Assembly (NCBI RefSeq): GCF_003052605.1
Contig: NZ_QASO01000130.1
Span: 124,001 to 188,000 of the forward strand
From: Ectopseudomonas oleovorans
GTDB taxonomy: Bacteria > Pseudomonadota > Gammaproteobacteria > Pseudomonadales > Pseudomonadaceae
Reading direction: 5' to 3'
DNA: 64,000 nt
The notes below the pieces were generated by a model, which searched no databases, was not told the DNA's origin, and saw only the letters and a list, made by a program, of their open reading frames with translations. Below, piece after piece: positions 4,033 through 11,765 of this stretch. Position 1 is the first letter of the stretch. Each line of letters begins with the position of its first letter. The position numbers and the translations under genes are program-made.

Positions 4033-4496
4033 GTAGGGCGGCTGCAACCCGCCAGATCGGCAGTGGCGGGTTTCACCCGCCCTACAGAAGCAGCGCTTCG
4101 CCCCAGGCATCCAACTCAGTGAACTCGCACGGCACCGCTGGCAATGGCAGGCGGCGTTGCGTCAAGCGTAGGGCGGGTGCAACCCGCCAGACCGGCGGTG
4201 GCGGGTTTCACCCGCCCTACAGAAGCAGCGCTTCGCCCCAGGCATCCAACTCGGTGAACTCGCACGGCACCGCTGGCAATGGCAGGCGGCGTTGCGTCAA
4301 GCGTAGGGCGGGTGCAACCCGCCAGACCGGCGGTGGCGGGTTTCACCCGCCCTACAGAAGCAGCGCCTCGCCCCCAGGCATCCAACTCGGTGAACTCGCG
4401 CGTCACCACTGGCAATGGCAGGCGGCGTTGCGTCAAGCGTAGGGCGGGTGCAACCCGCCAGACCGGCGTTGGCGGGTTTCACCCGCCCGACAAGGA
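4033..4496. repeat. Tandem array of ~135-bp units: GC hairpin plus duplicated cobK 3' end
   Basis: Four hairpins starting GTAGGGCGG at 4033, 4168, 4303 and 4439 (periods 135, 135, 136). Each hairpin pairs GGGCGGGTGCAACCCGCC with GGCGGGTTTCACCCGCCC. The spacer between hairpins repeats the last part of cobK: on the minus strand it still translates as [15 protein letters not shown], against [15 protein letters not shown] in CobK. The final hairpin holds the genuine cobK stop codon. So the array is a segmental tandem duplication of a gene tail with its terminal palindrome, not a CRISPR array. Confidence 0.9.
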
Positions 4497-5207
4497 CAGC
4501 GCCTCGTAGAGAGCGTCCAACTCCGCGAACTCACGCGTTACCACCGGCAACTGCGGGCGACGCAACAGCAAAACTGGCAATCCAAGCTCACGGGCGACCT
4601 GCAGCTTGGGTTCGGTGGAGGCGCTGCCGCTGTTCTTGCTCACCAGCACGTCGCAGCGGATACGGGCGAACAGGGCGCGCTCCTCATCCAGCGAGAACGG
4701 CCCACGTGCACCGATAATCTCGGCGCGCGGCGGCGCCGGCTCGGCCTGCAGGCAGCGTACCGTCCAGTGCTGGTGGGCAGGAATCTCGTGCAAATGCGCC
4801 AGCGGCTCGCGGCCGGAGGTAAAAAATGGCCGTTCGAACGGCGCAAGCGCGCGGGTCAGCTCATCCCAACCGTCCACTTCGCGCCAGTCGTCATTCGCGC
4901 CGGGCTGCCAGCCGGGGCGGCGCAGGGCCCAGCAGGGCACACCGGCGATCTCGGCGGCGCGGGCGGCGTTATGGCTGATCTGCGCGGCATAGGGGTGGGT
5001 CAGATCCAGCAGCAGCTCGATGTCTTCGCTCACGATAAAGGCCGCCAGGCCTTCGGCACCGCCAAAGCCGCCGACGCGCACGCGGCAGGCCAGATCGTCC
5101 GGCACGCGGCCGAGGCCGGCCAGGCTGTAGACGGTCTCCGGCCCCAGGCGGCGGGCCAGGCGCAGCGCCTCGGTGGTACCGCCTAGCAGCAGGAGTCGCG
5201 CCGTCAC
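4479..5207 (-). CDS. cobK: Precorrin-6A reductase
   Basis: 242 residues. Catalyses NADPH-dependent reduction of precorrin-6A to precorrin-6B in the aerobic cobalamin pathway. Family features: N-terminal [30 protein letters not shown] near residue 70-85, FTSGREPL, and [24 protein letters not shown] near the C-terminus. The start is GTG at 5207 and overlaps the cobL stop (GTGA), indicating translational coupling. The C-terminus (ALSLSGG, TGA) is encoded inside a REP-like hairpin and its 3' end has been copied in tandem just downstream. The stop may therefore have been shaped by the repeat. Confidence 0.95.
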
Positions 5208-6406
5208 GATTTATAGGCCGCCAGCAGGGTGATCGGCAGCGCCGCGCGCCAGGTGTCGAAGCCGCCCAGCGGCTGCGCCTGAGCCACAGTCAGACGCAGC
5301 AGCTCGCCACCGTGCTGCTCGCGGAAATTCACCAGCGCTGCCTCGCTTTGAATGGTCACGGCATTGGCCAACAGACGCCCGCCCGGCTTGAGCGCCGCCC
5401 AGCAATCATCGAGCACGCCAGGCACGGTAACGCCACCGCCGATAAAGATCGCATCCGGCGCCGGCAACCCAGACAAGGTCTCGGGTGCATGCCCGGCGAC
5501 CAGTTGCAGGCCGGGTACGCCGAGCGTGTCGCGGTTATGGCGGATATGTTCCTGGCGCCCCTCGTTGGCTTCGATGGCGATGGCCCGGCAGGCCGGGTGT
5601 GCGCGCATCCACTCGATGCCGATGGAGCCGCAACCGGCACCGACATCCCACAGCAGCTCGCCGGGTAGCGGGGCCAGGCGCGCCAGGGTGACCGCGCGCA
5701 CGTCGCGCTTGGTCAGTTGGCCGTCGTGGCGGTAGGCCTCGTCCGGCAGGCCGCAAGTTGGTGGCAACAGTTGCGCCCCGGCATCAGCCAGGCACTCCAC
5801 GGCCAGCAGGTTGAGATCGGCACCGCGTGGCAGGTTCCAGCTCGCGGCCAGGCCATCGATACGGCGCTCGTTGGGGCCGCCAAGGTGCTCCAGCAGATTC
5901 AGGCGGCTGGCGCCGAAACCGCGCGCACGCAGCGCTTCGGCAACCAGCGCAGGCGTATCGCCATCGGCGCTCAATACCAGCAGGCGCGTACCGGGATACA
6001 ACCGGGCGTTGAGCGTGGTCAGCGGCCGGCCGACCAAGGAGACCACCTCCACCTCCTGCAGCGGCCAGCCCAGACGCGCCGCTGCCAGCGACACCGAGGA
6101 CGGCGCCGGCAAAACCTGCAGTTCGTCGACCGGCACCTGGCGCGCCAGGCTGGCACCAACGCCATAGAACATCGGATCACCGCTGGCCAGCACGCACACC
6201 GCCTCGCCACGCCGGGCCAGCAGCGGTTGCAGATCGAAGGGGCTCGGCCAGGTTTCCCGCTCGCCCGTGATGCACGGCGGCAACAGCGCCAGCTGGCGCG
6301 GTGCACCGACAATACGCGTGGCCGCCAGCAGGGCACGGCGCGCGGCCTTGCCCAGGCCGGGGTAGCCGTCTTCGCCGATGCCGACCAGGGTCAACCAGGG
6401 TTTCAT
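5204..6406 (-). CDS. cobL: Precorrin-6Y C5,15-methyltransferase (decarboxylating), CbiE-CbiT fusion
   Basis: 400 residues from ATG 6406 (GAGGA 6 nt upstream). The N-terminal CbiE half is a class III SAM methyltransferase ([27 protein letters not shown]). The C-terminal CbiT half is a Rossmann methyltransferase ([24 protein letters not shown]). Together they methylate C5 and C15 and decarboxylate the C12 acetate of precorrin-6B to give precorrin-8. It is the first gene of a minus-strand cobL-cobK pair, divergent from cobG. The 600-bp divergent region contains the interrupted riboswitch. Confidence 0.96.
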
Positions 6407-6518
6407 CCAATGTCCTCGCACAGGCCCGACGGAGCGCCTGTCCGCGCTCCGGGCAAAGCGGGCATAATAGCGCCTTCGTCGGTGCCCTTGAGTCGATACG
6501 ACTCAGTAAAGGGCCTAA

Positions 6519-6629
6519 GGAAACTCTGAAATAGTCGTCATTCCCGCGCAGGCGGGAATCCAGAATCTCAGTACTACCTGGGCTCCCGCCTTCGCGGGAG
6601 TGACGGTAAATGGCCATTTCAGAGTTTCC
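6519..6629. mobile_element. MITE-like insertion 1 inside the cobG riboswitch
   Basis: 111 bp with perfect 14-bp terminal inverted repeats GGAAACTCTGAAAT / ATTTCAGAGTTTCC. The interior holds two GC-rich arms (ATTCCCGCGCAGGCGGGAAT and CTCCCGCCTTCGCGGGAG) that are themselves palindromic. No coding capacity. It separates GGGCCTAA from AGAGGGAAC of the B12 aptamer. A short AA flank on both sides could be a target duplication but is too short to be sure. Confidence 0.75.
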
Positions 6630-6706
6630 CCAAGAGGGAACACGGTAAAACCGTGGCTGCCCCCGCAACTGTAAACAGCGAGTCCAACGCAATCGGCCAC
6701 TGGAAA

Positions 6707-6846
6707 CAGGCCGCTGAAAAACGTAAGCGAGGCAGGCAAGACAAGGCAAAAACGACCGAAAAAGCGCAGTTTACGTGTTGTAAATGAGCATTTTGAGGCC
6801 GTTTTTAACGCCGTATTGCCAACGCAGATAGTTTTTCAACGGCCTG
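6707..6846. mobile_element. MITE-like insertion 2 inside the cobG riboswitch
   Basis: 140 bp bounded by CAGGCCGCTGAAAAAC and its near-complement GTTTTTCAACGGCCTG. It is AT-richer than its surroundings and has no open frame. It interrupts the aptamer between CCACTGG and GGGAAGGCGC, a segment that varies in length in ordinary cobalamin riboswitches. Its terminal sequence recurs at 52072 (CAGGCCGTTGAAAAACT), suggesting a common IS family could mobilise it; which family is not certain. Confidence 0.78.
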
Positions 6847-7004
6847 TACCGGGAAGGCGCAGCGGATCATGACCTGTCAGCCAGGAGACCTGCCGACGAA
6901 CGCTGGTCGCGAGTGCCAACATCGGGCGGGGTGTACCGATGCCATGGAGTCCCCTATGGGATTTCGCTGGTTCGGTCACCGCGTCGTTATCCACAGGTGA
7001 CCGC

Positions 7005-8318
7005 TTGCCCACATCCGTCCGCCCTTCCGCCTGCCCCGGCCTGCTGCGCATCGTCCCCGCGCTCGATGGTGGCATCTGCCGCATCAAGCTTCCTGGCGGC
7101 GTGCTGCGCAGCGCCCAGGCGCGGGCAATTGCCGAGGCGGCCAGGCACTGTGCCAGCGGCGTGCTGGAGCTGACCAACCGCAGCAACCTGCAGATCCGCG
7201 GCGTGCTGCCCGGCCAGGAAAACGCGCTGATCGACGCGCTGCTGAGCGCCGGCCTGGGCCCGCGCGTGGCCGCCGCCGACGATGTGCGCAACCTGCTGCT
7301 CAGCCCCGCCGCCGGCCTCGACCCGCACATGCGGATGGACGTGCGCCCAATGGCCGGCCAGTTGCTCGACCTGCTGCAGGACACCCCGGCGCTGCATGCC
7401 CTGTCGCCCAAGTTCGCCCTGCAACTCGATGGCGGCGAAGCCCTGGCCGTGCGCGAACACCCCCACGACCTGTGGCTGGCGGCTGAAGACGAGCAGCATC
7501 TGCTGCTGGGACTGGCCGGCTGCCCTGGCGATGCGCCCGTCGCGCGCGTCGAAGCGAGCCAGGCGCTCGAACTGGTTCGCCAACTGCTGCTGCTGTTCCT
7601 CGAACTGGCCACGCCCGAGCAGTCGCGCATGCGCCAGTTGCTGACGCAGATCCCGGCCAACGAACTGCTGCAGCGCCTGCAGGCGCGCCTGGATTTTGCC
7701 CTGCAGCAGGCCCCGGCCACGTGGCAGCCCGCCGCCACCGTCGAGCGCGCGCCGGCGGGGATTTATCCACAGGCGCAGAGCGGCCTGTGCATGGTCGCTG
7801 CTGGCGCCCAGCTGGGCCGGTTGCACGCCGAACAACTGACCACGCTGGCCGAGCTGAGCGAGCGCCATGGCGATGGCGAGCTGCGCCTGACGCCCTGGCA
7901 GGGTCTGCTGCTGGGCAACGTCCCCGAAGCCCGCGCCCGCGAACTGCTGGCTGAGCTGGACCAGCTGGGCCTGCTGACCCAGGCCGACGAGCCGCTGCTC
8001 GGCCTGGTCGCCTGCACCGGTTCGGCGGCCTGCGCGCGCGGCCTGGCCGACAGCAAGCACCACGCCCTGCATCTGGCCGAGCTGCTGCGCGCAAGCGGTA
8101 CCCGCCCGCAAGTGCACCTCAGCGCCTGCCCGCGCAGCTGCGCCAGTGCCCGTGTGCAGCCCTACACATTGCTGGCCAGCACGCCCGACCACTACCAGCT
8201 CTACCAACGCACGCCCGAGACGCCCGGTTTCGGCCGTCTGCTGGCGCCGGCCATGACCATCGACGAGGCCGGCGCCTGGTTCGCCCGCCAACATCCCGCA
8301 GGAAAACCCGATGCTTGA
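7005..8318 (+). CDS. cobG: Precorrin-3B synthase
   Basis: About 437 residues. Oxygen-dependent monooxygenase with 4Fe-4S and sirohaem-reductase-like architecture, converting precorrin-3A to precorrin-3B, which commits the cell to the aerobic route. Sequence features: CPGLLRIVPALDGGICRIKLPGG at the N-terminus, the ferredoxin-like repeat ELTNRSNLQIRG, and a C-terminal cysteine cluster VACTGSAACARG...LSACPRSCA that binds the Fe-S cluster. Start chosen as TTG 7005, preceded by AGGTGA with 5-nt spacing; an in-frame ATG at 6939 is possible but lacks a ribosome site. First gene of cobG-cobH-cobI; overlaps cobH by 8 nt. Controlled by the interrupted riboswitch upstream. Confidence 0.93.
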   Translation: MPTSVRPSACPGLLRIVPALDGGICRIKLPGGVLRSAQARAIAEAARHCASGVLELTNRSNLQIRGVLPGQENALIDALLSAGLGPRVAAADDVRNLLLSPAAGLDPHMRMDVRPMAGQLLDLLQDTPALHALSPKFALQLDGGEALAVREHPHDLWLAAEDEQHLLLGLAGCPGDAPVARVEASQALELVRQLLLLFLELATPEQSRMRQLLTQIPANELLQRLQARLDFALQQAPATWQPAATVERAPAGIYPQAQSGLCMVAAGAQLGRLHAEQLTTLAELSERHGDGELRLTPWQGLLLGNVPEARARELLAELDQLGLLTQADEPLLGLVACTGSAACARGLADSKHHALHLAELLRASGTRPQVHLSACPRSCASARVQPYTLLASTPDHYQLYQRTPETPGFGRLLAPAMTIDEAGAWFARQHPAGKPDA

Positions 8319-8937
8319 TTACATCCGCGACGGCCAGGAAATCTACCGCCGCTCCTTCGCCACCATCCGCGCCGAGGCCAACCTCGACGGCATCCCCGCC
8401 GACCTGGAGAAACTCGCCGTGCGGGTGATCCATGCCTGCGGCATGGTCGACGTGGTGGAAGACCTGCGCTTCTCCCCCGGTGCCGGCGCGGCCGGCCGTG
8501 CGGCGCTGCTGGCCGGCGCGCCGATCCTCTGCGATGCGCGCATGGTCGCCGAGGGCATCACCCGCCCGCGCCTGCCGGCGAACAACCAAGTGGTCTGCAC
8601 CCTGCACGACGCCGGCGTGCCGGAGCTGGCCCGCGAACTGGGCAATACCCGCTCGGCGGTGGCCCTGGAGCACTGGCGCGAGCACCTGGAAGGCAGCGTG
8701 GTGGTGATCGGCAATGCCCCCACCGCACTGTTCTACCTGCTGGAAATGCTCGACGCCGGTGCGCCCAAGCCGGCACTGATCATCGGCATGCCGGTGGGCT
8801 TTATCGGCGCGGCGGAATCCAAGGATGCCCTGGCCGCAGACAGTCGCGGCGTGCCCTACGTGATAGTCCGTGGCCGCCGTGGCGGCAGCGCCATGGCGGT
8901 GGCCGCGGTCAACGCCCTGGCCTCGGAGGTGGAATGA
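8311..8937 (+). CDS. cobH: Precorrin-8X methylmutase
   Basis: 208 residues. Moves the C11 methyl group of precorrin-8 to C12, forming hydrogenobyrinic acid. Recognised by [19 protein letters not shown], the catalytic histidine in VIHACGMVD (His41) and the glycine-rich AFIGxPVGF-like segment [15 protein letters not shown]. Start ATG 8311 overlaps the cobG stop (ATGCTTGA), and its own stop overlaps cobI (ATGA). The length is normal for the family. Confidence 0.96.
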
Positions 8938-9677
8938 TGGCCGGTCGCCTACTCGGTCTCGGCGTCGGCCCCGGCGACCCCGAGCTGCTCACCCTCAAGG
9001 CCTTGCGCCTACTCCAGTCGGCGCCGGTGGTGGCCTACTTCGTGGCCAAGGCCAAGCACAATGCCGGCCACGGCGGCAATGCCTTCGGCATCATCGAGGC
9101 CCACCTTACCGAGGCGCAGCAGCGCCTGCCGCTGGTCTATCCGGTGACCACCGAGAAGCTCGCCCCGCCGCTGTCCTACGAGGATGTGATCGCCGACTTC
9201 TACGACACCTGCGCCGAGCAGATCGCCCGGCTGCTGGACGCCGGCCAGGACGTGGCGGTGATCTGCGAAGGCGACCCGTTCTTCTACGGCTCCTACATGT
9301 ACCTGCACGACCGCCTGGCCGACCGCTACGAAGTGGAGGTGGTGCCCGGCGTCTGCTCCATGCTCGGCTGCGCCTCGGTGCTCGGCACGCCGCTGGTCTA
9401 CCGCAACCAGAGCTTGAGCGTGCTCTCCGGCGTGCTGCCGGAAGACGAGCTGGAACAGCGCCTGCGCGACGCCGAAGCGGCGGTTGTGATGAAGCTCGGG
9501 CGCAACTTCGACAAGGTGCGCCGCGTGCTGCGCAAGCTCGGCCTGGACGACCGCGCCCATTACGTCGAACGCGCGACCATGGTTAGCCAGAAGATCGTGC
9601 CGCTGGACGAGGTAGAGCCCATGGATTCGCCGTACTTTTCCATGATTCTGCTGCCTGGGCAGAAATGGCGGGGGTAA
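8934..9677 (+). CDS. cobI: Precorrin-2 C20-methyltransferase
   Basis: 247 residues. SAM-dependent methylation of precorrin-2 at C20 to precorrin-3A. A class III tetrapyrrole methylase: [20 protein letters not shown] at the N-terminus, [16 protein letters not shown] in the middle and [16 protein letters not shown] as the SAM-site loop. It overlaps cobH by ATGA; a second ATG lies immediately downstream (8937). A GTAGGGCGGG palindrome follows 5 bp after the stop and may terminate or stabilise the transcript before cobJ. Confidence 0.95.
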
Positions 9678-9681
9678 TGCC

Positions 9682-9734
9682 GTAGGGCGGGTGCAACCCG
9701 CCTGCAGCGAGCTGGCGGGTTGCACCCGCCCTAC
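9682..9734. repeat. REP-like palindrome between cobI and cobJ
   Basis: GTAGGGCGGGTGCAACCCGCC pairs with GGCGGGTTGCACCCGCCCTAC around a short loop, nested palindromes of the same family as the array at 4033-4496. There is no T-run, so it is more likely an extragenic palindrome that affects mRNA stability than a canonical terminator. Confidence 0.85.
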
Positions 9735-9800
9735 CCGTCTCAAGACCGTATACGGATGCACCCCGGGAAACCCATTCCCCGGATTGCAAGGATTTACCGC

Positions 9801-11450
9801 ATGAACATCGTCATCCTCGGCGCCAGTGCGCTGGCCACTGCACAACGTCTCAAGGCGCTTTATCCACAGGCGGAGATCCAAGGCCTGCGCGGGCGTGCCG
9901 ACGGCGCCGAGCGCCATTACGACGAGTTCGGCGAGCACCTGCGCACCCTGTATCGCGCCGGTCAGCCACTTGTGGTGCTGTGTGCTGCCGGGATCGTGAT
10001 TCGCAGCCTTGCCGCGCTATTGGCCGAGAAAGGCGCCGAGCCGCCGGTGCTGGCCCTGGCAGAGGATGGCAGCGCCGTGGTGCCGCTGCTCGGTGGCCTG
10101 GCTGGGGTCAACCGCCTGGCCCGCGAGATCGCCGCGCACCTGGGTGTGACGCCGGCCATCACCACCAGCGGCGAGCTGCGCTTCGGTACCTGCCTGCTGG
10201 AACCACCGGCCGGCTACGCGCTGGCCGACCTACAACAAGGCAAGCGCTTCGTCAGCGACCTGCTCGGCGGCGAGACGGTACGCATCGAAGGCCAGGCGCC
10301 CTGGCTGGACGATGCGCAACTGCCTGTGGATAACGCCGCCAGCCGGGTCATCCACATCACCGCGCAGGCGCGCCCGGCGCAACCGGACGAACTGTTGATC
10401 CACCCGCGCTGCGCCGCTGCGCTGATCGAGCGCCCCGGCGCCGACCTATCGGCTCGCCTGCAGCAGGCGTTGAGCGATGCCAACCTGGCGCCGCAAGCGC
10501 TGGCCGTTCTGCTCGCGGACAAAAGCTGGATGGCCAACGCCGAACTGCACGCCACCGCCGCCGAGTTGAAGCTGCCACTGCGCTTTATCCACAGCACATC
10601 CGAGCTACCGCCCGAGCACCATGCCAGCGACGGCCTGCGCCTGCTGCTGAGTGAACAACCGCTGGATATCGAACGCCTCGGCCAGCGCCGTGGCCGCCTC
10701 AGCGTGGTCGGCCTCGGCCCCGGCGCCGCCGAACATATGACGCCCGCCGTGCGCCGTGCCCTCGACGAAGCCGAAGACCTGCTCGGCTACGACACCTACG
10801 TGAAAATGGCCGGCCCGCTGCGCGCCGATCAATGCGTGCACCCCAGCGACAACCGCGAGGAGCTGCAGCGCGCCGCCCACGCCTTCGAACTGGCCGCCAG
10901 CGGTCGGCGGGTGGTGATGATCTCCTCGGGCGACCCTGGCGTGTTCGCCATGGCCGCTGCCGTAATGGAGGCGCTGGAAAACCCGCAAAGCGAGACCTGG
11001 CACAGCATCGAGCTGGAAGTACTGCCGGGCGTTTCCGCCGCCCTGGCTACCGCTGCTAAGGCCGGCGCGCCGCTGGGTCACGACTTCTGCCTGATATCCC
11101 TGTCCGACAACCTCAAGCCCTGGGCAGTGATCGAAAAGCGCCTGGAGCACGCCGCCGCAGCCGATCTGGCCATGGCCTTCTACAACCCGATCTCCAAGTC
11201 GCGCCCCTGGCAGCTCGGCCGCGCGCTGGAGTTGCTGCGCCAGCACCGCACGCCAGAAACGCTGGTGGTGCTCGGCCGCGATATCGGCCGCCCGGCCGAA
11301 GCGCTGCGCACCCTCACCCTCGGCGAGCTGACGCCGGAGCTGGTCGATATGCGCACCCTGGTGATCATCGGCTCCAGTCAGACCCGCCGCTTCCCGCGCG
11401 CCGATGGCGGCGAGTGGGTCTATACGCCGCGCTGGTATCCCGATCTGTAG
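9801..11450 (+). CDS. cobJ: CbiG-like / precorrin-3B C17-methyltransferase fusion
   Basis: 549 residues from ATG 9801 (AAGGA 8 nt upstream). Residues about 1-130 resemble CbiG_N (VVLCAAGIVIRSLAALLAEKG, AVVPLLGGLAGVNRLA). Residues about 190-275 resemble a CbiG_C/CobE-type domain. From about residue 295 the class III methylase begins (LSVVGLGPGAAEHMTPAVRRAL, MISSGDPGVFAMAAAV, VLPGVSAALATAAKAGAPLG). The methylase half performs C17 methylation and ring contraction of precorrin-3B. CobJ-CbiG fusions are usual in pseudomonads; the role of the CbiG part in an aerobic pathway is unclear. The TAG stop is the TAG of a REP palindrome (GTAGGAGCC). Confidence 0.94.
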   Translation: MNIVILGASALATAQRLKALYPQAEIQGLRGRADGAERHYDEFGEHLRTLYRAGQPLVVLCAAGIVIRSLAALLAEKGAEPPVLALAEDGSAVVPLLGGLAGVNRLAREIAAHLGVTPAITTSGELRFGTCLLEPPAGYALADLQQGKRFVSDLLGGETVRIEGQAPWLDDAQLPVDNAASRVIHITAQARPAQPDELLIHPRCAAALIERPGADLSARLQQALSDANLAPQALAVLLADKSWMANAELHATAAELKLPLRFIHSTSELPPEHHASDGLRLLLSEQPLDIERLGQRRGRLSVVGLGPGAAEHMTPAVRRALDEAEDLLGYDTYVKMAGPLRADQCVHPSDNREELQRAAHAFELAASGRRVVMISSGDPGVFAMAAAVMEALENPQSETWHSIELEVLPGVSAALATAAKAGAPLGHDFCLISLSDNLKPWAVIEKRLEHAAAADLAMAFYNPISKSRPWQLGRALELLRQHRTPETLVVLGRDIGRPAEALRTLTLGELTPELVDMRTLVIIGSSQTRRFPRADGGEWVYTPRWYPDL

Positions 11451-11765
11451 GAGCCCGCTTGCGGGCGATACAGCACCATCGGATACCTTGATCGCCGGCA
11501 AGCCGGCTCCTACGAAAAGCGCGTCTGCGCGCACCTTACAGACCCACGCACCAAGTGCCGGTATCCCAACCCGTAGGAGCCCGCTTGCGGGCGATCCAGC
11601 ACCGTCGGACACCTTGATCGCCGGCAAGCCGGCTCCTACGAAAAGCGCGTCTGCGCACACCTTACAGACCCACGCACCAAGTGCCGGTATCCCAACCCGT
11701 AGGAGCCCGCTTGCGGGCGATCCGGCACCGTCGAACACCTTGATCGCCGGCAAGCCGGCTCCTAC
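11447..11765. repeat. Three tandem 126-bp units: REP pair plus duplicated cobJ 3' end
   Basis: Units start with GTAGGAGCCCGCTTGCGGGC at 11447, 11573 and 11699 (period 126). Each contains the partner arm GCCGGCAAGCCGGCTCCTAC. The stretch before units 2 and 3 (GCCGGTATCCCAACCCGTAG) resembles the end of cobJ (GCTGGTATCCCGATCTGTAG), so the unit appears to include a copy of the cobJ tail. Same logic as the cobK array but built on a different REP family. No gene lies in this 400-bp interval. Confidence 0.88.

Follow-up and report, generated by a model that had tools for sequence, protein, structure and literature searches.

Two MITE-like inserts enlarge a cobalamin riboswitch upstream of cobGHIJ that most likely still works

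The leader of cobGHIJ raises the question whether a cobalamin riboswitch that holds two inverted-repeat inserts, here called E1 and E2, can still be a working switch, or whether the genes behind it have become constitutive or silent. The locus lies in the window, i.e. the whole stretch of 64,000 nucleotides that was analysed, which is part of contig 36 of a genome of 5.2 Mb. A sequence-only reading had claimed that all boxes of a cobalamin aptamer are present and in order before cobG, and that two non-coding pieces have been inserted among them. In a cmscan of the window, an RF00174 match was obtained at 6587-6911 with 83.5 bits (gathering cut-off 31.5), so the riboswitch is recognised despite the inserts. 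The match begins within E1, because the covariance model reads letters of E1 as a 5' strand. Two other cobalamin riboswitches of the window run without interruption (117.0 and 114.4 bits in the same scan) and are usable as intact controls, as had been proposed. The parts of the interrupted riboswitch are the following.

6475-6482, + strand: P1 5' strand TTCGTCGG; the true 5' strand, found in the leaders of relatives with few changes
6484-6514, + strand: P2 hairpin GCCCTT ... AAGGGC with inner hairpin GAGTCGATACGACTC; length and sequence differ among relatives
6515-6518, + strand: left target duplication CTAA, within the CUAAG junction motif; empty sites read GGGCCTAAGAGGGAA
6519-6629, + strand: E1, 111-bp MITE-like insert between P2 and P3, with perfect 14-bp ends
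6630-6633, + strand: right target duplication CCAA (T to C relative to CTAA); restores the 3' junction motif save one base
6634-6655, + strand: GAGGGAAC and P4 (CACGG 6641-6645 / CCGTG 6651-6655)
6656-6674, + strand: GCTGCCCCCGCAACTGTAA segment with L5
6697-6705, + strand: P6-extension hairpin hosting E2, 5' side CCACTGGAA
about 6706-6847, + strand: E2, 142-bp MITE-like insert in the loop of the P6-extension hairpin, with 17-nt ends that have one mismatch
6848-6857, + strand: P6-extension hairpin hosting E2, 3' side ACCGGGAAGG
6879-6900, + strand: AGCCAGGAGACCTGCC and P1 3' strand (CCGACGAA 6893-6900)
6920-6941, + strand: P13-like hairpin CATCGG-(GCGGGGTGTA)-CCGATG

Read from the sequence, P1 is closed by eight pairs out of eight between its two strands, and the AGCCAGGAGACCTGCC segment is the B12 box. 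The loop GCGGGG of the P13-like hairpin is complementary to CCCCGC of L5 and lies about 70 nt before the likely start of cobG; the hairpin, CATCGGGCGGGGTGTACCGATG, is identical across the leaders compared, L088 excepted. When the core was defined as the 138 alignment columns that are invariant across 20 intact orthologous leaders, the window matched 137 of these columns, with the conserved segments in order. A consensus scan of 6380-7060 found no promoter- or terminator-like sites brought in by the inserts.

Downstream, the genes are arranged as follows.

6939-8318, + strand: cobG open reading frame as listed (TIGR02435); the true start is probably TTG 7005
8311-8937, + strand: cobH, precorrin-8X methylmutase
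8934-9677, + strand: cobI, precorrin-2 C20-methyltransferase
9720-11450, + strand: frame with a cobJ domain (TIGR01466 above cut-off)

The N-terminal part of the last frame resembles CbiG, below model cut-offs, and the gene is perhaps a CbiG/CobJ fusion. Oriented opposite to cobGHIJ are a gene for precorrin-6A reductase and a CobL-like gene with CbiE and CbiT domains. On the minus strand, the frame at 10605-11753 repeats a stretch of about 42 codons, with two nearly identical copies and a partial third one, from the end of cobJ outwards; this resembles an intergenic repeat array. In the region 6939-7005 of the window, an ATG in the 3' arm of the P13-like hairpin is shared by all 44 leaders described below. 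It is open into the cobG frame in 19 of them and opens a short frame of 2-23 codons in the other 25 (88 codons in L077), possibly a small upstream ORF; in most leaders, a TTG some 66-70 nt beyond this ATG is the likely cobG start.

Both inserts have the properties of MITEs, namely inverted ends, multiple copies, target duplications and empty sites. In the case of E1, the length of 111 bp and the perfect 14-bp ends given earlier were confirmed, as the arms (6519-6532 and 6616-6629) are complementary at all 14 nt. In the case of E2, the earlier description as a second inverted-repeat insert held, and its size of 140 bp with 16-bp ends had to be refined to 142 bp with 17-nt ends and one mismatch, reading ACAGGCCGCTGAAAAAC from 6706 and GTTTTTCAACGGCCTGT to 6847. 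These ends are absent from the repeat-finder output because the mismatch breaks its 9-nt seed. The genome itself holds 30 match rows for E1 (some places on both strands, the weaker rows partial) and 44 for E2 (partly partial). Other copies were picked from the best matches and aligned by eye, several of both families having degenerate or different ends: 10 of 16 other E2 copies with flanks lie between TA dinucleotides, and two of nine other E1 copies have exact 4-bp duplications, CTAA and TCAG. At the locus studied here the E1 duplication differs by one base (CTAA/CCAA). The E2 target is TA, which is present on both sides in L063 and lost from the window copy.

A third family, F3 (TCTGTTTACGATCTCGCGAGCTAGAGCC...), has a middle that resembles E2 (GTAAATGAGCATT in L077 and others), with 45 match rows in G000, 17 in G008 and 48 in G109. 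YTAR-like duplications are a feature of IS5 and TA duplications of IS630/mariner elements. The target duplications thus suggest that E1 was mobilised by an IS5-type and E2 by an IS630/mariner-type mover.

To describe filled and empty sites, cobG leaders were taken from the best 30 loci of 298 genus genomes and from 17 loci of named genomes. The window and L060-L106, less L086, L087, L089 and L060 (the window itself), gave 44 aligned leaders, a non-random set in which some rows are near-identical strains. Inserts are present in 24 of the 44 (15 at site A only, 2 at site B only, 7 at both), and 20 have none, L071 among them. Site A, i.e. the P2/P3 junction or the P2 loop, holds E1 in 13 leaders and F3-type elements in nine, reversed in L093 and L097. 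Site B holds full-length E2 in seven leaders; in L069 a remnant of roughly 40 nt is left of E2, and L076 has an F3-like element there. Between the same limits, the window leader measures 427 nt and the 20 intact orthologues 158-185 nt; the inserts add 253 nt. For E2, the empty site reads GCCACTGGGTAACCGGGAAGG in several species and corresponds to GGGTA[E2]TAACCGGG in L063, which makes the TA duplication visible. Empty sites for both elements were found within loci of the P. mendocina/oleovorans group, relatives having been named beforehand as a comparison to make, and no native stems were seen in their place. This group also includes all of the 17 CobG loci to which CobG of the window is 82-97% identical in best segments. 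P. guguanensis JCM 18416 (L090) has the nearest cobG (98% over 1100 columns) and neither E1 nor E2, and the three closest relatives by cobG are all without inserts. Since both elements recur genome-wide and relatives have empty sites, E1 and E2 are not chance pairings. Altogether, multi-copy elements, target duplications and natural empty sites bear out the earlier view of the two pieces as insertions in a cobalamin aptamer.

Recurrence was then followed beyond cobG. Among 20 genomes of the clade, RF00174 gave 110 matches, at least 20 of which have extra stretches, namely cobG leaders in 12 genomes plus eight further loci (L107, L108, L109, L110, L111, L113, L114, L144). L111 is a shortened element judged by eye; for the remaining matches the match length was the sole criterion, so that an insert on the 5' side can escape notice, as that of L144 did. 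A second riboswitch of the own genome, G000:C130:5034 (L113), carries an E2-like insert in the P6 extension and has an empty orthologue, L117. It scores 33.5 bits with the insert, and the empty orthologue in G202 scores 98.4. L110 and L114 were grouped with it. In 28 further genomes, chosen partly for holding E2 or cobG matches, 109 matches (two below cut-off) include at least eight with long stretches (L125-L131, L134); L112 and L132 have longer stretches that were not counted as inserts. In L108 and L127-L130, a long unclassified filler (GTCTGTCGG ... CCGACAG) lies in the site-B loop of another cobalamin riboswitch, of which L136 and L137 have short forms; the L108 filler is a candidate mobile insert.

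Over the 48 genomes and 17 named loci, 14 insertion events could be distinguished, counted by element, site and locus and not from a tree, because recombination seems to move alleles between species. Twelve fall in variable regions and two at the P2/P3 junction; by site, there are two at this junction, four in the P2 loop, two in the P4 loop and six in the P6 extension, one of these being the unclassified filler. Inside the P3-P6 core segments, none was seen among the 14. An after-the-fact estimate for 11 of 13 events outside conserved columns, made before the fourteenth was added, gave P 0.0005. The TPP and FMN riboswitches of these 20 genomes served as controls, and every match has normal length: 20 for TPP, at 106-108 nt, and 19 for FMN, at 149-164 nt, G093 having no FMN match. 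Before L144 was counted, 19 of 110 cobalamin matches versus none of 39 TPP and FMN matches gave a Fisher p of 0.004, for genomes that are related and not independent and for cobalamin switches that are longer than TPP and FMN switches. For three inserts in the six riboswitches of the own genome, a rough after-the-fact calculation gave P 0.0002-0.003, assuming 12% intergenic DNA, 60-150 element copies and 200 nt per switch.

In folding predictions for the window, 99% of the pairing of E1 and 97% of that of E2 is kept inside the element. Exceptions to such self-pairing among 16 leaders are L105 (83%) and the shortened F3 insert of L102 (3%). When P1, P4, P13 and the site-B stem are imposed, the cost is 4.5 kcal/mol for the window; it ranges over 1.0-8.2 kcal/mol among the 24 carriers and 0.0-9.9 among the 20 intact leaders, with one or more helices not located by pattern, and hence not imposed, in some rows. 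In the forced fold of the window, E1 stands free as a hairpin between P2 and P3, and E2 prolongs the site-B hairpin. In the unforced, ligand-free fold, P1 has a probability of 0.01 in the window; six intact leaders are likewise ambiguous, at 0.00-0.61. Scores of RF00174 are 103.2-121.3 bits in ten intact orthologues and 83.2-100.5 in ten insert carriers, a drop that inserts would cause in any case.

In the 13 E1 carriers, 1 of 138 core columns varies versus 17 of 111 E1 columns (Fisher 6e-6), and in the seven E2 carriers 1 of 138 versus 15 of 151 site-B columns (Fisher 4e-4), both p-values treating columns as independent. Over all 24 carriers, 47 of 3312 core cells depart, and the changes touch 26 of the 138 columns; 16 of these departures are in the divergent leader L088, five in L073, four in L068 and three in L076. 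The column that changes in the E1 carriers is the base copied by the target duplication: the U of CUAAG (6631 in the window) is U in 20 of 20 intact leaders and C in 13 of 13 E1 carriers, and it is G in L068, L073, L076, L088, L101, L102 and L106. Thus one conserved base did change, which counts against intact function.

This altered base is among the points for the alternative that the inserts broke the switch, leaving cobGHIJ constitutive or silent, with the core persisting only as the allele is young or recently recombined. Divergence of E1 between species is low (0-10 of 111 positions per pair), so the E1 alleles may be too young or too recently shared to show core decay. In addition, the tract 6451-7050 of the window is 99-100% identical with L061, L062 and L100, and identity drops to 84-88% over the 300 bases that follow, as a recent exchange would give. 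However, the embedded element changes more than the core in the same alleles. Deep branches of the cobG tree also hold F3-type inserts, in L073 and L077 at the same junction and in L088 within the P2 loop, and these three leaders keep 133, 136 and 122 of 138 core columns, respectively. The distinguishable events moreover avoid the P3-P6 core, and no such filtering is expected of a broken switch. We therefore consider a broken switch improbable. Tolerated expansion, the other branch of the earlier alternative, is favoured because the core is far better conserved than the inserts, retention at peripheral sites is repeated and the inserts mostly fold on themselves; on these grounds we infer that ligand binding and regulation are retained.

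The identity pattern around the locus is a mosaic. Compared with P. oleovorans DSM 1045 (L095), identity is 96-100% in each 150-base block of 5551-7200 and falls to 79-91% over 7201-8250. Against P. guguanensis, it is 94-100% over 7201-8400 and 81-93% over 4201-6450. Outside 6451-7050, L061, L062 and L100 are at 84-96% in two blocks after and one block before. A recombination tract carrying the double-insert leader would explain this pattern, and the allele apparently came by homologous recombination from a P. oleovorans-like donor. A plasmid search with the riboswitch core returned 56 records, none covering 80% of the query.

A selected role of the added stems, e.g. as folding or timing modules that tune the response, would agree with inserts that recur and persist over many species and with an E1/E2 tract that some species share at higher similarity than the genes next to it. 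Such similarity is explained by recent recombination, the closest cobG relatives do without inserts, and L069 retains just its E2 remnant. By eye, the end pairing of E1 decays without compensatory change in L063 and L105, which leaves E1 unsupported as a selected stem, and overall we hold selected stems to be very improbable. Native extra stems of a riboswitch subtype can be dismissed: peripheral stems of cobalamin riboswitches vary naturally according to excerpts of PMC11260477 and PMC2258182, but genomic copies, target duplications, near relatives with empty sites and other elements at the same sites leave this reading next to no probability.

In conclusion, we consider it quite probable that the locus is a class I-like AdoCbl riboswitch enlarged by two MITEs that most likely works, and that the double-insert allele was recombined in. 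The 4-bp target of E1 is CTAA in the CUAAG junction, and its duplication returned a copy of the junction motif to the 3' side, beside P3. E2 went into a TA in the hairpin loop of the P6 extension. Each element is predicted to fold alone into a long hairpin, which would leave the four-way junction (P3-P6), P1, L5 and the L13-like loop free; with these parts free, the switch most likely still senses AdoCbl. The AdoCbl-bound switch would then lower cobGHIJ expression through L5-L13 loop pairing. The double-insert allele itself apparently entered by homologous recombination from the P. oleovorans-like donor.

On balance, we also lean towards a wider reading, in which Pseudomonas cobalamin riboswitches are recurrent landing sites for MITEs of several families in the P2 loop, P2/P3 junction, P4 loop and P6 extension of several paralogous switches. 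Selection would keep inserts that spare the core, recombination would spread the alleles, and insertion at P2/P3 would be largely self-healing via the target duplication. This would amount to a natural insertion scan and to a route to new peripheral domains. It bears on how structured RNAs gain such domains, and nature appears to have tested where a cobalamin riboswitch can be enlarged. Donor elements, target duplications, empty sites and a species series are all at hand, so this natural scan is directly testable. As the model misplaced the 5' strand into the insert, and G000:C130 reaches so low a score, other expanded riboswitches may be missed or shortened in databases.

The riboswitch does not represent a new class of RNA. 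It is unusual that a single riboswitch family holds so many inserts, of such diversity and with such a bias in position, and that the duplication at P2/P3 is in large part self-restoring. Architecture and loop-loop mechanism were taken from excerpts of PMC11260477, PMC10907184 and PMC2258182, the class I-like architecture (PMC11260477, PMC2258182) consisting of a P2 arm, a P3-P6 four-way junction and a P6 extension (P7, P8, P10, P11). The window riboswitch resembles class I-like members of RF00174 in the order of its conserved segments, its score above the gathering cut-off and its L5-L13 complementarity, the helix mapping being our own, and differs in being enlarged by 253 nt of transposon inserts. 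Like bacterial MITEs, E1 and E2 are short, with inverted ends, many copies and target duplications. The excerpted review PMC10969869 states that bacterial MITEs might act through riboswitches or terminators; unlike the MITEs in that excerpt, which names no such case, E1 and E2 lie within a metabolite-riboswitch aptamer, and repeatedly so. Among the matches listed for open-licence papers in PubMed Central, none described a transposon that lies within a metabolite aptamer. The nearest precedent found, in the excerpt of PMC3049150, is a pneumococcal BOX element that separates two T-box riboswitches in front of the trp operon, and the authors argue from RNA-seq that the flanking riboswitches still function. 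As in that case, a small mobile repeat is co-transcribed with riboswitches; whereas BOX, as described in this excerpt, sits between two complete riboswitches, the inserts described here interrupt a single aptamer twice, relatives have empty sites, and there are many parallel cases.
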